Assembly (NCBI RefSeq): GCF_023347535.1
Contig: NZ_CP094473.1
Location: forward strand, 1,178,001-1,242,000
Origin: Faecalibacterium sp. HTF-F
Lineage (GTDB): Bacteria; Bacillota; Clostridia; Oscillospirales; Ruminococcaceae
Length of the DNA stretch: 64,000 nt
Direction: 5' to 3'
Shown in pieces: positions 44,984-53,941 of the stretch. The notes under the pieces are model-generated. The model saw nothing but the letters and a program-made list of their open reading frames with translations. It made no database searches and was not told the DNA's origin. Each line of letters starts with the position of its first letter. Within the stretch, counting starts at the first letter, position 1. The position numbers and the translations under genes were made by a program.

Positions 44984-45029
44984 ACCCACTGCAAACATAG
45001 GCTGATTTTGAAAAATTTGCAAACAGGTA

Positions 45030-45057
45030 TTGACAAACGAAAAATCCGTGGTTTAAT
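45030..45057 (+). promoter_or_regulatory. trp promoter
   Basis: TTGACA (45030-45035), 16 bases, TTTAAT (45052-45057), about 25 bp ahead of the T-box leader. Confidence 0.8.
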
Positions 45058-45082
45058 ATAGCCAAATTCAATACACTAAACC

Positions 45083-45402
45083 GTTGAAGCGGAGATAACG
45101 GCGAACCACGCCTGTACAGAGAGCCTGCGCAGCTGAGAAGCAGACCGGAAACAGTTCGTCAAGGAAAGTGTGATTTTGCGTCACTTTTCCCGAAATGGAC
45201 CGCTGAGGGTGCAGGGAACTGCGGTGCTTTTACCGCACAGTATTCTGCAACGTGAGGGCGTACGTCAGTTGCCGGGGATGTGTTGGCATCCCGCCAAGTG
45301 CATGGGGTCATACCCATGAAATCAGGGTGGTACCGCGGATAAAAGGCCAAGCTTTATTCGTCCCTGACAGAAGAGCGTTCTTCTGTCGGGGGCGTTTTGT
45401 TT
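45083..45402 (+). promoter_or_regulatory. Tryptophan T-box leader
   Basis: A classic T-box riboswitch. A long stem I begins near 45083, with the probable specifier TGG at 45196-45198 (GAAATGGACCGC), fitting tRNA-Trp. The T-box AGGGTGGTACCGCGG lies at 45324-45338 and pairs with the uncharged tRNA end. A terminator follows at 45359-45398 (CGTCCCTGACAGAAG / CTTCTGTCGGGGGCG, then TTTT). Uncharged tRNA-Trp lets transcription continue into the trp genes. All core parts look intact. Confidence 0.93.
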
Positions 45403-45405
45403 TAT

Positions 45406-45437
45406 ACTCCTTCGGCAGAAGAGCCGGGGGAGTTTTT
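45406..45437 (+). terminator. Second terminator behind the T-box
   Basis: ACTCCTTCGGC / GCCGGGGGAGT (wobbles) around AGAAGA, followed by five T, only 10 bases after the T-box terminator and 24 bp before the first codon. It is not part of the standard T-box fold and would lower read-through even when the T-box is open. Confidence 0.7.
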
Positions 45438-45460
45438 GTTTTACCGGGAGGGAAAAAGCC

Positions 45461-45674
45461 ATGAAGATACGGCCCACACTGGACGAAGTATCACTCGCTG
45501 GCAGCAGACCCCGCCACCATGCCGCCGGAACTCAAAGTAACGGCCCGCACCGCCGATGGCGAAGTGATGGCAGTGCAGCACACAAAATATCCCATTTACG
45601 GTGTGCAGTTCCATCTGGAATCCATCCTGACCCCGCAGGGCCGGTCGATCTTGAAAAATTTTATGGAGGGTTAA
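45461..45674 (+). pseudogene. trpE-trpG: trpE/trpG deletion scar (anthranilate synthase lost)
   Basis: The first ten codons, MKIRPTLDEV, look like the start of TrpE. At about 45487 the sequence jumps, one frame over, into the C-terminal end of TrpG: YHSLAADPATMPPEL, then EVMAVQHTKYPIYGVQFHLES and ILKNFMEG before TAA 45672 (61 codons). Nearly all of trpE and most of trpG are gone, so chorismate cannot become anthranilate by this locus. In the trpE frame a 73-codon chimera runs on to TGA 45680-45682, overlapping the trpD start as ATGA, so translation is still coupled into trpD. The TrpG part is certain; the TrpE part rests on ten residues plus position. Confidence 0.85.
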
Positions 45675-45678
45675 GAAA

Positions 45679-46710
45679 ATGATCAAGGAAGCAATCGTGA
45701 AGATCGTCAGCAAACAGGACCTGACCTATGACGAAGCCTACGCCGTGATGAACGAGATCATGAGCGGCGAGACCACGCCCACCCAGAACGCAGCCTTTCT
45801 GGCGGCACTCTCCACCAAGAGCGCCAAGGCGGAGACGACCGACGAGATCGCAGGCTGCGCTGCTGCCATGCGGGACCACGCCACCAAGGTGGATGCCGGC
45901 ATGGAGCTTTTCGAGATCGTAGGCACCGGCGGCGACAACGCCCACAGCTTTAATATCTCCACCACCTCGGCGCTGGTGGCGGCGGCAGGGGGCATGAAGG
46001 TGGCCAAGCACGGCAACCGGGCCGCATCCTCCCAGTGCGGCACCGCCGACTGTCTGGAAGCACTGGGCGTGAACATTCAGCAGAGCCCCGCCCGCTGCGT
46101 GGAACTGCTGAACGAGGTGGGTATCTGCTTCTTTTTTGCCCAGAAGTACCACGCCTCCATGAAGTACGTGGGCCCCATCCGCAGGGAACTGGGCTTCCGC
46201 ACCGTGTTCAACATCCTTGGACCGCTCACCAATCCCGGTTCGCCTGCCATGCAGCTGCTGGGCGTCTACGATGAATACCTTGTAGAGCCGCTGGCACAGG
46301 TGCTCATCAGTCTGGGGGTCCGGCGCGGTATGGTGGTCTACGGCAAGGATAAACTGGACGAGATCTCCCTCAGTGCTCCCACCAGAGTGTGTGAGATCAA
46401 GGATGGCTGGTACAAGTGCTACACCATCACGCCGGAGCAGTTCGGTCTGACCCGCTGCGAAAAGGCCGACCTTGTGGGCGGTGCCCCGGCAGAAAATGCC
46501 GCCATCACTCGCGCCATTCTGGCAGGCGAGAAGGGCCCCAAGCGTGACGCCGTTCTGCTGAACGCGGGCGCATCCCTCTACATCGGCGGCAAGGCCGAGA
46601 CGGTGGCGGAGGGCATCGCACTGGCTGCACAGCTGATCGACAGCGGCAAGGCAGCGGCTGTGCTGGAAAAGTTCATCGAAGTGAGCAACCGTCCGGAGGA
46701 AAATGCATGA
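45679..46710 (+). CDS. trpD: Anthranilate phosphoribosyltransferase
   Basis: This 343-residue enzyme joins anthranilate and PRPP. It carries the PRPP-binding [24 protein letters not shown], then [21 protein letters not shown] and the anthranilate-site region [22 protein letters not shown]. It is intact. ATG 45679 follows GGAGGG and overlaps the stop of the out-of-frame trpE/G chimera. It is the first complete gene of the remaining trpDCFBA operon; it overlaps trpC by four bases. Confidence 0.95.
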
Positions 46711-47489
46711 ACATCTTAGACCAGATGGCCGAACACGCCCGGCAGCGGGTGGAAGCGGCAAAGCAGACCCTGCCGCTGGCCGAAATAAAGCGGCAGGCGC
46801 TGTCCCTGCCCAAAGGGGACTTCCGGTTTGAAAAAGCCCTTGCAAAGCCGGGGCTTGCTTTTATCTGTGAGTGTAAAAAAGCATCGCCCTCCAAGGGGCT
46901 CATCGCACCGGAGTTCCCATACCTGCAGATCGCAAGAGAATACGAAGCCGCCGGGGCAGATGCCATCTCGGTGCTGACCGAGCCAAAGTGGTTCCTTGGC
47001 AGTGACGACTATCTGAAGGAGATCGCTTCTGCTGTCTCCACACCCTGCCTGCGCAAGGATTTTACCGTGGATGCGTACATGATCTACGAAGCAAAGCTTC
47101 TGGGCGCTTCGGCGGTGCTGCTCATCTGCGCGATTCTGAACGATGCACAGCTCAAAGAGTATCTTGCCATCTGCGAGGACTTGGGACTCTCCGCTCTGGT
47201 GGAAGCCCATGATGACGCCGAAGTGGACCGGGCACTTGCCGCCGGGGCACGCATCCTCGGTGTGAACAACCGCAACCTGAAAACCTTCACGGTGGACACC
47301 GAAAACAGCCGCCGCCTGCGGGCCCGTATCCCGCAGGATGTGCTTTTTGTCTCGGAAAGCGGCGTAAAAACTGCCGAAGATGTTTCCGGGCTTGCAGCCA
47401 TCGGGGCAGACGCAGTGCTCATTGGTGAAACGCTCATGCGTGCGCCGGATAAGACCGCAAAGCTGCGGGAATTGAAAGGACTGCTATGA
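46707..47489 (+). CDS. trpC: Indole-3-glycerol phosphate synthase
   Basis: This 260-residue TIM-barrel enzyme closes the indole ring. [15 protein letters not shown] holds the catalytic lysine segment. Also seen are [29 protein letters not shown] and [17 protein letters not shown] overlaps with trpD before it and trpF after it imply coupled translation. Confidence 0.95.
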
Positions 47490-48106
47490 CAAGGATCAAA
47501 TTGTGCGGCCTGACCCGTCCGGAGGAGATCGCAGCGGCAAATGCCCTGCAGCCGGAGTACATCGGCTTTGTGTTTGCCCCCAAAAGCAGACGGTATGTTT
47601 CCCGGGAATTGGCCGCAGAATTAAAAGCACAGCTTTCCCCCGGGATCCAGGCCGTGGGCGTGTTCGTGAACGAAGCACCGGAAACGGTGGCGGGCCTGCT
47701 GAATGCGGGCATTATCGATATTGCCCAGCTCCACGGGCAGGAGGATGCTGCTTACCTTGCCCGGCTGCGGGGGCTGACCGCAAGGCCGCTCTGGCAGGCA
47801 TTCCGCGTGACGGATGCCGAAAGCCTTGCAAAGGCGGAAAAAAGCCCGGCAGACCTTGTTCTGCTGGATTCCGGCGCAGGCGGAACGGGCAGGGCCTTTG
47901 ACTGGGCGCTGCTGGAAAATTTCAAGCGGGATTATCTTCTTGCCGGAGGGCTTGGCCCGGAGAATGCGGCCGATGCTGTGGAGCGTCTGCACCCCTATGG
48001 GGTGGATGTGAGCTCCGGCATTGAGACGGCAGGGAAGAAGGACCCCGAAAAGATGGCGGCATTCGTGGCCGCGGTACGCAAAAACGACCAATCAGGAAAG
48101 GAATGA
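47486..48106 (+). CDS. trpF: Phosphoribosylanthranilate isomerase
   Basis: This 206-residue TIM barrel isomerises PRA to CdRP. It starts [15 protein letters not shown] with the catalytic cysteine, and has GFVFAPKSRRYVS, VGVFVNE, AQLHGQED and the catalytic aspartate region VLLDSGAGGTGRAFDW, ending YGVDVSSGIE. Overlaps trpC by four bases; six bases to trpB. Confidence 0.94.
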   Translation: MTRIKLCGLTRPEEIAAANALQPEYIGFVFAPKSRRYVSRELAAELKAQLSPGIQAVGVFVNEAPETVAGLLNAGIIDIAQLHGQEDAAYLARLRGLTARPLWQAFRVTDAESLAKAEKSPADLVLLDSGAGGTGRAFDWALLENFKRDYLLAGGLGPENAADAVERLHPYGVDVSSGIETAGKKDPEKMAAFVAAVRKNDQSGKE

Positions 48107-48112
48107 ACGACC

Positions 48113-49303
48113 ATGACAAACCCCAACGGACGCTTTGGCATCCACGGCGGACAATATATCCCCGAAACGCTGATGAATGCCGTCATTGAACTGGAAGAGG
48201 CCTACAACCATTACAAAGATGACCCGGAGTTCAATCGGGAGCTCACCGAACTGCTCAACGAGTACGCAGGCCGCCCCAGCCGCCTGTACTATGCAAAAAA
48301 GATGACCGAGGACCTCGGCGGTGCAAAGATCTACCTCAAGCGCGAGGACCTGAATCACACCGGTGCGCACAAGATCAACAATGTTCTCGGGCAGGCGCTG
48401 CTGGCCAAAAAGATGGGCAAGACCCGCCTCATCGCCGAGACCGGTGCCGGTCAGCATGGCGTTGCCACCGCCACTGCCGCTGCCCTGATGGGCATGGAGT
48501 GCGTGGTGTTCATGGGCGAGGAGGACACCAAACGTCAGGCACTGAACGTCTACCGGATGCGTCTTTTGGGCGCAGAGGTCATTCCCGTCACCAGCGGCAC
48601 CGGCACGCTGAAGGATGCCGTGTCCGAAGCCATGCGCGAGTGGACCAGCCGCATCAGCGACACCCATTACTGCCTTGGCTCGGTGATGGGCCCGCATCCG
48701 TTCCCCACCATCGTGCGTGATTTTCAGGCCGTTATTTCCAAGGAGATCAAGGAGCAGATGCTGGAAAAGGAAGGCCGCCTGCCGGATGCCGTCATTGCCT
48801 GCGTGGGCGGCGGCTCCAACGCCATTGGCAGTTTCTACAATTTCATCAACGACAAAACCGTGCGTCTCATCGGCTGTGAGGCCGCAGGCCGCGGCACCGA
48901 TACCTTTGAGACTGCCGCCACCATCAATACGGGCCGTCTGGGCATTTTCCACGGCATGAAGTCCTATTTCTGTCAGGATGAATACGGTCAGATCGCGCCG
49001 GTCTACTCCATTTCTGCCGGTCTGGATTATCCCGGCATCGGCCCGGAGCACGCATGGCTGCATGATATCGGCCGCGCCGAGTATGTGGCAATTACGGACG
49101 ACGAAGCTGTGAACGCATTTGAATATCTGGCACGCACCGAGGGCATCATCCCGGCCATTGAATCGGCCCACGCCGTGGCCCATGCCATCCGGCTGGCACC
49201 CACTATGGACAAGGACCAGATCATTGTCATCACCATTTCCGGCCGCGGCGATAAGGACTGCGCCGCCATTGCCCGCTACAGAGGGGAGGATCTTCATGAG
49301 TAA
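48113..49303 (+). CDS. trpB: Tryptophan synthase beta chain
   Basis: This 396-residue PLP enzyme joins indole and serine. It starts [16 protein letters not shown]. The PLP lysine is in [14 protein letters not shown], then [13 protein letters not shown], the phosphate-binding [10 protein letters not shown] and the C-terminal SGRGDKD. Its indole comes from TrpA or, in a strain lacking anthranilate synthase, from outside. It overlaps trpA by eight bases. Confidence 0.96.
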
Positions 49304-50069
49304 CATTGCAAAGGCCTTTGCCAACGGCAAGGCGTTCATTCCGTTCATCACCTGCGGCGACCCGGATCTGGAAACCACTGCCGCCGCCGTCCGCGCCATG
49401 GCGGCAAACGGTGCCGACCTCATTGAGCTGGGCATCCCGTTCTCGGACCCCACCGCCGAGGGCCCGGTCATTCAGGGGGCCAACATCCGCGCCCTGAAAG
49501 CGGGGACCACCACGGATAAGGTCTTTGACTTCGTCCGCGAGGTGCGGAAGGATGTTTCGATCCCCATGGTGTTCATGACCTATGCAAATGTCGTGTTCTC
49601 CTACGGCGCAGAGCGGTTCATCTCCACCTGCGCGGAGATCGGCATTGACGGGCTGATCCTGCCCGATCTGCCCTATGAGGAAAAGGACGAATTTCTGCCC
49701 ATCTGCCGCAAATACGGCGTGGACCTGATCTCAATGATCGCCCCTACCTCTGAAAACCGCATTGCCATGATCGCCAAAGAAGCCGAGGGATTTTTGTATA
49801 TCGTGTCCAGTCTGGGCGTCACCGGAACCCGCAGCGAGATCAAGACCGACCTTGCGTCCATCGTGAAGGTGGTGCGGGAAAACACCGCAGTGCCCTGTGC
49901 CATCGGCTTTGGAATCTCCACACCGGAGCAGGCGGCAAAGATGGCGGGCATCGCCGATGGTGCGATCGTGGGTTCCGCCGTCATCAAGCTGCTGGAGCAG
50001 TACGGCAAGGATGCCCCGGAGCAGATCGGTGCCTATGTCAAGCGCATGAAGGATGCCGTAAGAGGATAA
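49296..50069 (+). CDS. trpA: Tryptophan synthase alpha chain
   Basis: This 257-residue TIM barrel cleaves indole-3-glycerol phosphate. The catalytic glutamate is in [21 protein letters not shown] and the catalytic aspartate in [20 protein letters not shown] and GFGISTPEQ form the phosphate site. ATG 49296 after GGGGAGG starts MSNIAKAF; the longer frame upstream lies in trpB and is ignored. Last gene of the operon, followed by a terminator. Confidence 0.95.
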
Positions 50070-50309: not shown

Positions 50310-51023
50310 TCAATTGCGCTTTTTGCCAAGGTAAGCTGCCTTGACGCTTTCGTCTGCCAGCAGTTCGGTGCCGGTACCGGAAAGGGTCAGAGTGCCGGTC
50401 TCCAATACGTAAGCGTAGTCGGCCACCTTCAAGGCCATGTTTGCGTTCTGCTCGTTCAGCAGCACGGTGATGCCCTGCTGGTTCACGGTGCGGATGATGT
50501 CAAAGATCTCCCGCACCACAATGGGCGCAAGACCAAGGCTGGGCTCGTCCAGCATCAGCAGCTTGGGCTTGCTCATCAGAGCGCGGCCCACGGCCAGCAT
50601 CTGCTGCTCGCCGCCGGAAAGGGTACCGGCGCTCTGCCAGCTGCGCTCTTCCAGACGGGGAAAGAGCTTGAACACCCACTGCAGGTCTTTCTCGGTTTCA
50701 GCTTTGTCCTTGCGCAGGTATGCGCCGATCTTCAGGTTTTCCAGTACAGTCAGGTCGGCAAACACCCGGCGGCCCTCCGGCGACATGGCAATGCCGCTGG
50801 CAACGATCTGGTCAATGGGCTTGCCCAGTATTTCCTGACCGTTCCACAAAATGGAGCCGCTCTGTGCCTTTACAAGGCCGGAAATGGTGCGCATCAGGGT
50901 GGACTTGCCTGCGCCGTTGGCACCGATCAGGGTGACGATCTTTCCCTCGGGTACGGTCAGCGACACGCCGCGCAAAGCCTGAATCCCGCCGTAGGAAACA
51001 TGTAAATCCTTGATCTCAAGCAT
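50310..51023 (-). CDS. livF: Branched-chain amino acid ABC transporter ATPase LivF
   Basis: This 237-residue ABC ATPase has Walker A GANGAGKST, signature LSGGEQQML, Walker B LLMLDEPSLGLAP and the H-loop-type NEQNAN of LivF proteins. It works with LivG on the inner face of the LivHM channel. ATG 51023 gives MLEIKDLHVSYGG and overlaps livG by eight bases; the frame beyond is unlikely. Last gene of livKHMGF. Confidence 0.92.
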   Translation of the reverse strand: MLEIKDLHVSYGGIQALRGVSLTVPEGKIVTLIGANGAGKSTLMRTISGLVKAQSGSILWNGQEILGKPIDQIVASGIAMSPEGRRVFADLTVLENLKIGAYLRKDKAETEKDLQWVFKLFPRLEERSWQSAGTLSGGEQQMLAVGRALMSKPKLLMLDEPSLGLAPIVVREIFDIIRTVNQQGITVLLNEQNANMALKVADYAYVLETGTLTLSGTGTELLADESVKAAYLGKKRN

Positions 51024-51858
51024 CTTCGTCCACCCCCAGATAAGCGTCAATGACCCGCGGGTCGTTCTGCACCTCGGCAGGCGTGCCCTCGGCGATCAGA
51101 CGGCCAAAGTCCAGTACATAGACCCGGTCAGAAATATCCATCACCAGATCCATATGGTGCTCGATCATGAACACCGTCAGTCTGAAATCGGTGCGGATGC
51201 GGTCGATAAAAGCAGTCAGCTCTTCGGTCTCCTGCGGGTTCATACCGGCAGCAGGCTCATCCAGCAGCAGCAGCTTCGGTTCGGTGGCAAGGGCACGCGC
51301 GATCTCCACACGGCGCTGCAGGCCGTAGGGCAGGCCGGTAGCCAGTTCATTGCGCACATCCTCAAGGCCCAGCACATGCAGCAGGTTTTCGCACTCCTCA
51401 CGCTGACGCTTTTCCTCATCTGCATTCAGCCGGAAGGTAGCGCTCAGCAGGTTGGCCGAGCGACGGCAGTGCTTGGCGATGAGCACGTTCTCAAACACGG
51501 TCTGGCTCTTCCACAGACGGATATTCTGGAAGGTGCGGGCAATGCCCATTTGGGTGATCTTATCGGGCGTGGGGGTAATAATGTGGGAATACTTGCCCGC
51601 GTTCTGGCCCTTATAGAGCTTTTTCATCTTGCCGTGGGGCGTGTTCTCAATGATCTTGCGCCCCTCGAACCACACTGCGCCATTGGTGGGCGCATACACG
51701 CCGGTAACAACGTTGAACGCGGTGGTCTTGCCGGCACCGTTGGGGCCGATGAGGGAGACAATCTGATCTTTATCCACCTTCAGGTTCAGATTGTCCACAG
51801 CCACCACGCCGCCAAACTGCATCGTGGCGTTTTCAATGGTCAATACGTTTTCACTCAT
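51016..51858 (-). CDS. livG: Branched-chain amino acid ABC transporter ATPase LivG
   Basis: This 280-residue ABC ATPase has Walker A GPNGAGKTTAFNVVTGVY, a LivG-type insertion (about 65-130), the degenerate signature LPYGLQRRVEIARAL, Walker B LLLLDEPAAGMNP and the H-loop IEHHMD. It overlaps livM by four bases and livF by eight. Confidence 0.93.
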   Translation of the reverse strand: MSENVLTIENATMQFGGVVAVDNLNLKVDKDQIVSLIGPNGAGKTTAFNVVTGVYAPTNGAVWFEGRKIIENTPHGKMKKLYKGQNAGKYSHIITPTPDKITQMGIARTFQNIRLWKSQTVFENVLIAKHCRRSANLLSATFRLNADEEKRQREECENLLHVLGLEDVRNELATGLPYGLQRRVEIARALATEPKLLLLDEPAAGMNPQETEELTAFIDRIRTDFRLTVFMIEHHMDLVMDISDRVYVLDFGRLIAEGTPAEVQNDPRVIDAYLGVDEDA

Positions 51859-53015
51859 TTGGAACGCGCCTCCTTTTTGGCAGCTTTTGCAGTGGATGCG
51901 GGCTTTTTCTGGAACAATTCACGGTCGCCCATGATGCCCTTGCGGAAGAACAGCACCACCGCCATAATGATGATGCTGAACACCACCATGCGGAAGCCGG
52001 AACGCAGCAGCGGCACACGGAAGCCGCCGATCCAGGTCTCGTTGTCGAGGAAGCGCAGCAGCCATTCGGAGCTGGCAATGAACAGGAAGGACGCGATGAT
52101 GGAACCGGACACCGAGCCGATGCCGCCAATGACCACGATCAGCAGGATCTCGTAGGTCATGCTGGATTTGAAGGTGGTGGCCTGCACGCTGGCCTGATAC
52201 ATGGCCAGCATTGCGCCGGAGATACCGGCAAAGAAGCTGCTGATGATAAAGCTCATGCGCTTGTGGCTGGCAAGGTTGATGCCCATGGCTTCGGCAGCGA
52301 TCTCATCGTCACGGATGGCCTTGAAGGCACGGCCATAGGTGGAGTTGATGAGCAGCAGGATGATGGCGATGCACACACCGGAAAAGAGAAAGGGCATCAC
52401 CGTTTCCAGATGCAGGGTCGTGCCGCCCAGCGAAAGGTTGAAGCTGGCAAAGCTGGTGAAACCGTACAGAAGGTTGGAGCCGTTGGTCAGCGGGCCAAAG
52501 CCTTCGTAAACCACGGCGGCACGGATGATCTCGGCAAAGCCCAGTGTGGCAATGGCAAGGTAGTCACTCTTCAGCTTCAGCACCGGCAGGCCGATGAGGA
52601 AGGCGAACAGCGCTGCGATAAAACCGGCCAGGATCAGGCAGAAGACAACGCCCAGCAGCAGGCCGAAGCCGCCCAGAGGTTTGGAGAGCAGCTCCGGGAT
52701 GGAGAAGCCGATGCCGCCGTTTGCATAGCGCTGGTAGATGGATTTCTGCGAAGCGGCGGGAATGGTGAGGATGGCGTAGGTGTAGGCACCCAGCAGCATA
52801 AAGCCTGCCTGCCCCAGACTGAACAGGCCGGTAAAGCCGTTCAGCAGGTTCATGGACACCGCCACCAGCGCATAAATGGCGCCCTTGCGCAGCACGGTCA
52901 GCAGCATGGAGGGCACAAAGCTCAGGTTATCCAGTGCCAGCAGCACCAGCAGCAGGGCGGCCAGCGCCAGCGCAGCCCGGAGATAGATGCGTTTTTTCTC
53001 TTGTTTCATGGTCAT
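51855..53015 (-). CDS. livM: Branched-chain amino acid ABC transporter permease LivM
   Basis: A permease of about 386 residues with a long N-terminal region, ten or so hydrophobic segments, and the EAA-like loop AFKAIRDDEIAAEAMGIN typical of LivM. GSVSGSIIASFLF matches the family C-terminal half. ATG 53015 shares a base with the livH stop (TGATG); GTG 53018 and ATG 53009 are alternatives. Confidence 0.92.
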   Translation of the reverse strand: MTMKQEKKRIYLRAALALAALLLVLLALDNLSFVPSMLLTVLRKGAIYALVAVSMNLLNGFTGLFSLGQAGFMLLGAYTYAILTIPAASQKSIYQRYANGGIGFSIPELLSKPLGGFGLLLGVVFCLILAGFIAALFAFLIGLPVLKLKSDYLAIATLGFAEIIRAAVVYEGFGPLTNGSNLLYGFTSFASFNLSLGGTTLHLETVMPFLFSGVCIAIILLLINSTYGRAFKAIRDDEIAAEAMGINLASHKRMSFIISSFFAGISGAMLAMYQASVQATTFKSSMTYEILLIVVIGGIGSVSGSIIASFLFIASSEWLLRFLDNETWIGGFRVPLLRSGFRMVVFSIIIMAVVLFFRKGIMGDRELFQKKPASTAKAAKKEARSK

Positions 53016-53893
53016 CACACTTTCTCGGTCAGGTTTTCACTGAACAGGCCGGTAGGCTTTACCGCCAGCACCACGATCAGCAGTGCAAAGGTGAAGGCAT
53101 CGCTGAAGGTGGTGGCACCGGCACCCTTGATCAGGCTTTCACAGATGCCGATGATGAAGCCGCCGATGACAGCGCCCGGAATGGAACCGATGCCGCCGAA
53201 CACGGCTGCCACAAAGGCTTTCAGGCCCGGCATGGCACCCACGGTAGGCGTGACCGCCGTGTAATTGGAAAAATACATCATGGAACCGATGGCCGCAAGA
53301 AAGCTGCCTACCGCAAAGGTAAAGGAGATGACATTGTTGATCTTGATGCCCATCAGCTGAGCGGTCTCAAAATCGCGGGAAGCTGCGCGCATTGCCATGC
53401 CGATCTTGGTCTTCTGGATCAGGGTGACAAGCGCTGCCACCAGCACAATAACGAGGAACGGCGTTACGACTGTGACCCGCTTGGTCTGGCAGCCCAGCAC
53501 CGTGACAGTGTCGCTGATCCAGGGCAGAGCCGGGTACTGCTTGGCCAGACCGCCGGTGACATACCACATGGAGTTCTGCAAAAGGTAGGACATACCGATC
53601 GCAGAGATCATCACCGACATGCGCGGCGCAGTGCGCAGGGGCTTGTAGGCGATCTTTTCCACTGCGATGCCCAGCAGCACCGTTGCCACCACCACCAGCG
53701 GGATGGAAATGGTCAGCGGAAGGGAAGCAGTAGCGTACACCATCAGAAAACCGGCTACGGTAAAGATATCGCCGTGGGCAAAGTTGATCAGGCGCAGGAT
53801 GCCGTACACCATCGTGTAGCCAATGGCAATCAATGCATACTGGCCGCCCACCGAGATACCTGCCAGCAAATAGGGCAGAAACTTTGCAGCCAT
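53015..53893 (-). CDS. livH: Branched-chain amino acid ABC transporter permease LivH
   Basis: This 292-residue permease has GISVGGQYALIAIGYTMVYGILRLINFAHGD, the EAA-like MRAASRDFETAQLMGI and FGGIGSIPGAVIGGFIIG. ATG 53893 is preceded by GGAGGG on the minus strand; the frame upstream is not used. Confidence 0.92.
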   Translation of the reverse strand: MAAKFLPYLLAGISVGGQYALIAIGYTMVYGILRLINFAHGDIFTVAGFLMVYATASLPLTISIPLVVVATVLLGIAVEKIAYKPLRTAPRMSVMISAIGMSYLLQNSMWYVTGGLAKQYPALPWISDTVTVLGCQTKRVTVVTPFLVIVLVAALVTLIQKTKIGMAMRAASRDFETAQLMGIKINNVISFTFAVGSFLAAIGSMMYFSNYTAVTPTVGAMPGLKAFVAAVFGGIGSIPGAVIGGFIIGICESLIKGAGATTFSDAFTFALLIVVLAVKPTGLFSENLTEKV

Positions 53894-53941
53894 AAGGGAA
53901 ACCCTCCATTTCTTACAACTTTTATTTTGATACAAGCAAAG

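Follow-up and report, generated by a model that had tools for sequence, protein, structure and literature searches.

The window, a stretch of 64,000 nucleotides from Faecalibacterium sp. HTF-F, raises the question of what a tryptophan operon is kept for once the enzyme of its first step is gone. The initial annotation had described ten TrpE-like codons that run out of frame into the final 61 codons of TrpG. We mapped the join against the intact operon of F. prausnitzii CNCM I-4541 (locus L014) and found the fusion as described (Table 1). The N-terminus of the scar ORF, MKIRPTLDEV, matches residues 1-10 of the intact 490-aa TrpE. The TrpE frame is abandoned after GTA at 45488-45490, and past the join a different frame encodes the final 61 of TrpG's 188 residues, with the stop at 45672-45674. 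Alignment to related genomes, a check that the initial annotation had proposed, sized the loss at 1822 bp and showed that its two ends share GTA. The deletion took nearly all of trpE and two-thirds of trpG, and the scar lies between the Trp T-box and trpDCFBA (45679-50069). We infer that GGAGG in the retained trpG tail is the trpD ribosome-binding site.

Table 1. Features of the cut tryptophan operon and its leader in the window.
Feature	Position	Strand	Evidence
Trp T-box leader RNA; specifier UGG, antiterminator GGUGGUACCGCG	45075..45368	+	RF00230 51.6 bits, E 1.8e-10; motifs as in homologous trp leaders
Scar ORF, 73 aa, 222 bp	45461..45682	+	starts with ten trpE codons and crosses the trpG tail in another frame; its TGA overlaps trpD ATG
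Deletion join GTA, 3-bp microhomology	45488..45490	+	1822 bp absent relative to CNCM I-4541 (L014)
trpG remnant, final 61 codons and stop	45489..45674	+	contains GGAGG at 45665-45669 ahead of trpD
trpD, anthranilate phosphoribosyltransferase, 343 aa	45679..46710	+	TIGR01245 403.5 bits, above cut-off; solved relatives
trpC, indole-3-glycerol phosphate synthase, 260 aa	46707..47489	+	NF001377 345.8 bits, above cut-off
trpF, phosphoribosylanthranilate isomerase, 206 aa	47486..48106	+	NF002298 E 1.9e-53, below cut-off; solved relatives
trpB, tryptophan synthase beta, 396 aa	48113..49303	+	TIGR00263 653.4 bits, above cut-off
trpA, tryptophan synthase alpha, 257 aa	49296..50069	+	TIGR00262 285.1 bits, above cut-off

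The identical junction was present in Faecalibacterium sp. I4-3-84 (G028, L015; NZ_CP094466.1). Because that genome, described as complete, carries the same junction, an assembly error, which had been named as a possible refutation, is very unlikely and was rejected. Chance is not an issue, since homology extends to the join from both sides and the scar is common to two genomes. One old deletion is likelier than two identical events. The initial annotation had spoken of "the strain"; the scar is indeed in this genome, but that wording was too narrow, as two species share it. Between 45490 and 45679 we counted four private changes in the window and three in I4-3-84, a divergence resembling that of the upstream DNA. 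Private changes in the trpG remnant were nonsynonymous in 3 of 6 cases, compared to 53/361 in the kept genes (P = 0.048, on very few changes). Within the remnant (45489-45671), the window has QFHLES in place of the QFHPES found in the scar relative and in intact TrpG. The scar ORF had no relative among the metagenome proteins searched, and the scar string was absent from the viral contigs searched.

We searched the host genome, a single contig of 2.776 Mb and 99.5% complete, for another source of anthranilate. PF00425, which covers TrpE, PabB and relatives, had no match there and matched 14/14 control genomes. This search, a check that had been called for, found no second trpE or pabB. The claim that tryptophan cannot be made from chorismate through this locus was upheld, and by this search the anthranilate-synthase step appears to be missing from the whole genome, beyond this locus. 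Chorismate synthase is present. Kynureninase (TIGR01814), which would supply anthranilate in the manner of Chlamydia caviae, was not found in the genome; 10 of the 14 control genomes matched, 2 of them above the cut-off.

The leader ahead of the scar carries a UGG specifier and an antiterminator as in homologous leaders, in agreement with its earlier designation as a Trp T-box. It scored 51.6 bits with RF00230 (E 1.8e-10) against a gathering score of 93, compared to 94.6 for a homologous leader (L063); another RF00230 search gave no match at the gathering score. We assigned the UGG specifier by register against other T-boxes. The specifier loop, AAAUGGACCGC, is identical in the other 23 of 24 loci scanned; nine of the 24 are Faecalibacterium operons or operons that are cut or lost, and 15 are intact operons picked by hand. 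The UGG specifier and the antiterminator GGUGGNACCGCG were both found in 24/24 loci, with the qualification that the search pattern itself required UGG. Their form throughout is UGG followed by A, and GGUGGYACCGCG.

The host genome holds 16 T-box matches (E 2.3e-10 or better), at least one further of which has a UGG specifier; specifier loops were read by eye, some not clearly. This second UGG T-box precedes an operon for a TrpX-type protein, a permease and an ATPase. The arrangement resembles that of Streptococcus suis, in which the available text of PMC9382623 places a tryptophan T-box before trpX of the trpXYZ importer. It differs in that the TrpX-type protein here scored 188.7 bits with NF041285, under the cut-off of 390, and the importer is putative. 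Judged by these genes, imported tryptophan would be an equally available route, and a tryptophan importer would make salvage unnecessary while tryptophan is present. According to the available text of PMC7360928, F. prausnitzii SL3/3 failed to grow when tryptophan was left out, and it lacks several genes.

The five genes behind the scar had been called intact, and we observed full-length open frames for all five in both scar species. TrpD, C, B and A passed NCBIfam cut-offs; TrpF fell under the cut-off of each matched sub-model yet is clearly TrpF (E 1.9e-53). Alignment with solved isomerases matches its Cys7 and the Asp in LLDS, and we take both residues to have roles in the isomerase. The alignment obtained for TrpC was to a designed enzyme and has no bearing on catalysis. 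Between the two scar genomes, omega was 0.064 for trpD, 0.085 for trpC, 0.20 for trpF, 0.030 for trpB and 0.053 for trpA, making trpB the most and trpF the least constrained. Two observations weaken dN/dS as proof that selection acted once the deletion had occurred: dS was 0.44-0.62 in the trp genes compared to 0.17-0.21 in three upstream genes (2-3 times), and identity drops right behind the scar. Because the trp genes are more diverged than the upstream genes, most of the measured constraint may predate the scar or stem from another lineage.

From 42500 to the scar, most bins of the two scar genomes are 92-99% identical, with one short bin at 83%. Behind the scar identity is 82-94.5%, and there the two genomes are about as distant from each other as each is from CNCM I-4541. 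A 19-kb control region gave 91.6-93.8% identity. Further downstream, to 62.5 kb, pieces are 85-90% alike, and I4-3-84 and a second relative (G029) are still at least 96% identical there. The drop at the scar and the downstream agreement of these two relatives point to a probable exchange with another lineage of the sequence behind the scar, either in this genome or in the common ancestor of I4-3-84 and G029. The alternative is transfer of the scar together with the upstream tract. Compared with the same two genomes, window positions 35598-62518 form a mosaic, ~94-96% identical before the scar and 85-90% behind, and identity of the control region to G029 shifts internally from 92% to 97%. Branched-chain-type ABC transporter genes (50310-53935, minus strand) separate trpA from the DNA that adjoins trpA in I4-3-84 and the T-box in G029.

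We next used lineage-private changes and a neutral-decay simulation, both affected by the same recombination problem. Private changes were nonsynonymous in 53/361 cases in the scar genomes and 27/199 in CNCM I-4541 (P = 0.80). For trpD, trpC and trpF together, the counts were 38/215 and 18/110 (P = 0.88). In trpF alone, 11/28 private changes on the window's branch were nonsynonymous compared to 5/26 on the other branch (P = 0.14), an excess that hints against maintained constraint. In simulations of neutral decay, the runs that escaped a stop numbered 0/300 at 0.095 substitutions per site (half the dS of the upstream genes), 1/300 at 0.05 and 39/300 at 0.02. These data suggest that the kept genes have no sign of relaxed constraint, in a test weakened by the downstream recombination. 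The earlier proposal that the kept enzymes may serve cross-feeding stands in part: the genes are intact and apparently unrelaxed, with the caveat that those behind the scar have recombined. Should scar and flank be of equal age, the genes behind the scar would not have drifted freely in the lineage that retained its own.

Among 31 Faecalibacterium genomes, one has the whole operon, two have the scar, one has an orphan T-box at the same site, and 28 lack a true TrpD. In 22/31, completeness is 90% or higher and contamination 5% or lower, so gaps may account for some of the absences. A TrpD search at E 0.001 or better matched 9/31 genomes. Three of these are true TrpD; the remaining six match at 28-30% over ~135 residues. 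Full-length operon TrpB occurs in the same three genomes, and weaker relatives (best 34-37% identical) occur in others. PF00425 matched 1/31. We located the upstream rhomboid gene in 28/31 genomes, with contig ends cutting five of these 28 loci, and found the specifier and antiterminator motifs after it in four: this genome, I4-3-84, CNCM I-4541 (G012) and G029. The CNCM I-4541 operon is complete, with TrpE of 490 aa and TrpG of 188 aa. It shares site, leader and gene order with the window, and its five counterparts of the kept proteins are 78-97% identical; it differs in having both trpE and trpG complete.

In G029 the T-box and terminator are fused to the downstream flank and the trp genes are gone; its identity to I4-3-84 is at least 99% over 44990-45485. 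The orphan T-box and terminator lie at 1650-2130 of its locus (L150), and the next gene is on the opposite strand. Intact trpE alleles may be common in metagenomes, because TrpE sequences 93-98% identical to that of CNCM I-4541 were plentiful among the matches listed (120 of 7981; for TrpD, 120 of 5806), and TrpE of other genera in the trpD-locus set (the best 80 of at least 585) reached at most 81% identity. The nearest matches in both searches carried no taxon.

We also looked for the same arrangement outside the genus. Among trpD loci from named genomes (the best 80 of at least 585 confirmed), 23 had no trpE beside trpD. These were the scar relative (L015), eight whose genomes we searched in full, and 14 others (nine with trpD alone, five with little upstream DNA). 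PF00425 was found elsewhere in four of the eight genomes and was not found in the other four (L033, L034, L050 and L063), all of which have a UGG T-box ahead of trpD. Remnants span TrpE 1-35 and TrpG 85-187 in L034, TrpE 1-28 and TrpG 147-187 in L050, and TrpE 1-46 and TrpG 137-186 in L063. As their end points differ, these three scars look like separate deletions; all three are from metagenome-assembled genomes, in which absence is less certain. L033 (Lachnoclostridium sp. An196) has no TrpE or TrpG remnant. L050 has no trpBA nearby. In L034 (5740-5830), trpF runs directly into trpA with no trpB between. The L034 and L050 operons may be decaying.

In a separately drawn sample of 393 Clostridia genomes, 183 had trpD above cut-off and 196 had PF00425. 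Nine of the 183 had no PF00425, this genome among them. The sole clear T-box-trpDCFBA operon without trpEG among the other eight was in G355 (L183). Sequence ends or changes close upstream of trpD in G397 and G062, and gene orders around trpD differ in G305 and G196. In G123 trpD is shortened and full copies of trpC and trpF are missing, and the trpD relatives in G248 and G097 are distant ones with neither trpBA nor trpC alongside. Outside the genus we therefore count five loci without trpEG behind a UGG T-box (three scars, two clean losses), in genomes without PF00425. Loss of trpEG behind a T-box seems to have been reached independently by unrelated gut bacteria. At most the first 46 of 490 TrpE codons are left in the four scars, this one included. 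This may reflect selection to be rid of the entire enzyme but retain the leader and the trpD ribosome-binding site; later erosion of a TrpE remnant would give the same picture.

Read from the sequence, the locus has a scar common to two species, an intact leader and five intact genes, in a genome with no PF00425 match. We consider it most likely, at a probability of roughly 65%, that the cut operon is in use as a tryptophan operon entered at anthranilate, and such an operon is probably still functional. One microhomology-type deletion would have removed the one enzyme found for the step from chorismate to anthranilate. The Trp T-box would sense uncharged tRNA-Trp and let transcription proceed straight onto trpD, whose ribosome-binding site would sit in the retained trpG tail. 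External anthranilate, with PRPP and serine, would then be converted to tryptophan by TrpD, F, C, A and B. TrpB could additionally take indole, and the TrpX-type importer behind the other T-box would be switched on in parallel. We infer the uptake and use of anthranilate, the function of the T-box, and such use as the reason for gene retention. Anthranilate entry is favored by the missing PF00425 and kynureninase alongside a chorismate synthase, by the unrelaxed state of trpD, trpC and trpF (needless for indole use), by the same cut arising repeatedly, and by five genes intact in both scar species when 300/300 simulated runs acquired stops at 0.095.

The chief competitor, which we regard as unlikely but well within consideration, is that imported tryptophan sustains the cell, that trpEG loss was the first step of decay, and that trpDCFBA persist by recency or recombination. 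The orphan T-box of G029 indicates that the operon can be lost, and 28/31 genus genomes are without true TrpD. Decay also agrees with the trpB missing near trpD in L034 and L050, the recombined downstream tract and the TrpX-type importer; these points, together with the trpF hint, count against anthranilate entry. However, two species with differing downstream genes retain all five intact behind the same scar, nonsynonymous changes are not in excess, and stop-free neutral runs were absent at 0.095, single at 0.05 and a minority at 0.02 substitutions per site. Chlamydia trachomatis salvages indole by trpBA. A similar use here, in which only TrpB (with TrpA) would matter, converting indole and serine to tryptophan with trpD, trpC and trpF as passengers, agrees with trpB having the lowest omega and with the partial trpR-trpBA set described for that species in the available text of PMC10242142. 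We consider it improbable, as trpD, trpC and trpF are intact and unrelaxed and L034 retains D, C, F and A with no trpB between. The locus is not a trpBA-only set of the C. trachomatis type. An anthranilate synthase of a hidden family would complete the pathway from chorismate and account for the chorismate synthase and the five kept genes, but PF00425 matches all 14 control genomes and has no match here, and we know of no other family that makes anthranilate from chorismate. We regard this last explanation as very improbable.

Anthranilate entry has described counterparts. The presence of TrpA, B, C, D and F with TrpEG absent, by the scar at the locus and the empty PF00425 search, is the gene content of variant A3, found in 38/2856 human gut genomes (Ashniev et al. 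2022, PMC9026213). The available text of that study proposes that A3 requires tryptophan or anthranilate, suggests anthranilate salvage, and finds tryptophan synthesis to vary more across gut genomes than any other amino-acid phenotype. The gene content matches this locus and the requirement is the one proposed here; the study differs in giving counts, with no deletion scars, T-box or selection in the text available, and Faecalibacterium is absent from its main text. The type, a dependence on a precursor from neighbours, is already described but has been little studied; what is added here is its history at base level, its recurrence and the retention of the T-box. As described in the available text of PMC10242142, Chlamydia caviae, C. 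felis and C. pecorum have trpR-trpDCFBA with kynU and prsA. They likewise have trpDCFBA without trpE and enter at anthranilate, but obtain it from kynurenine via KynU, whereas here no KynU was found and the leader is a T-box. The open-licence literature that we searched yielded no account of this scar, of trpEG being lost repeatedly behind a T-box, or of Faecalibacterium growing on anthranilate.

A broader proposal, which we put forward only tentatively, is that removal of trpEG behind an intact Trp T-box is recurrent and selected in gut Clostridia, converting a prototrophic operon to one for regulated anthranilate uptake in a guild that shares anthranilate, with recombination that replaces trpDCFBA keeping the operon working. 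As a natural experiment, the locus could reveal whether gut bacteria trade intermediates of a pathway as well as finished amino acids. It is suited to this by its single deletion, the intact sister CNCM I-4541, the operon-less G029 and the public scar genome I4-3-84. If anthranilate is used, models that call such strains plain tryptophan auxotrophs overlook one food.

We made three further observations on related loci. Antisense trpB fragments occur elsewhere in the genus, 173 bp in G018 (L159, 8004-8176) and 68 bp in G014 (L155, 7927-7994), 91% and 88% identical to the window, behind a gene that we take from its appearance to encode a LysR regulator. As 30/31 Faecalibacterium genomes are without a PF00425 match, the PabB-type step to p-aminobenzoate is also missing from them. 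A THF riboswitch (75.1 bits) lies near the cut trp operon of L033, at 2237-2335.
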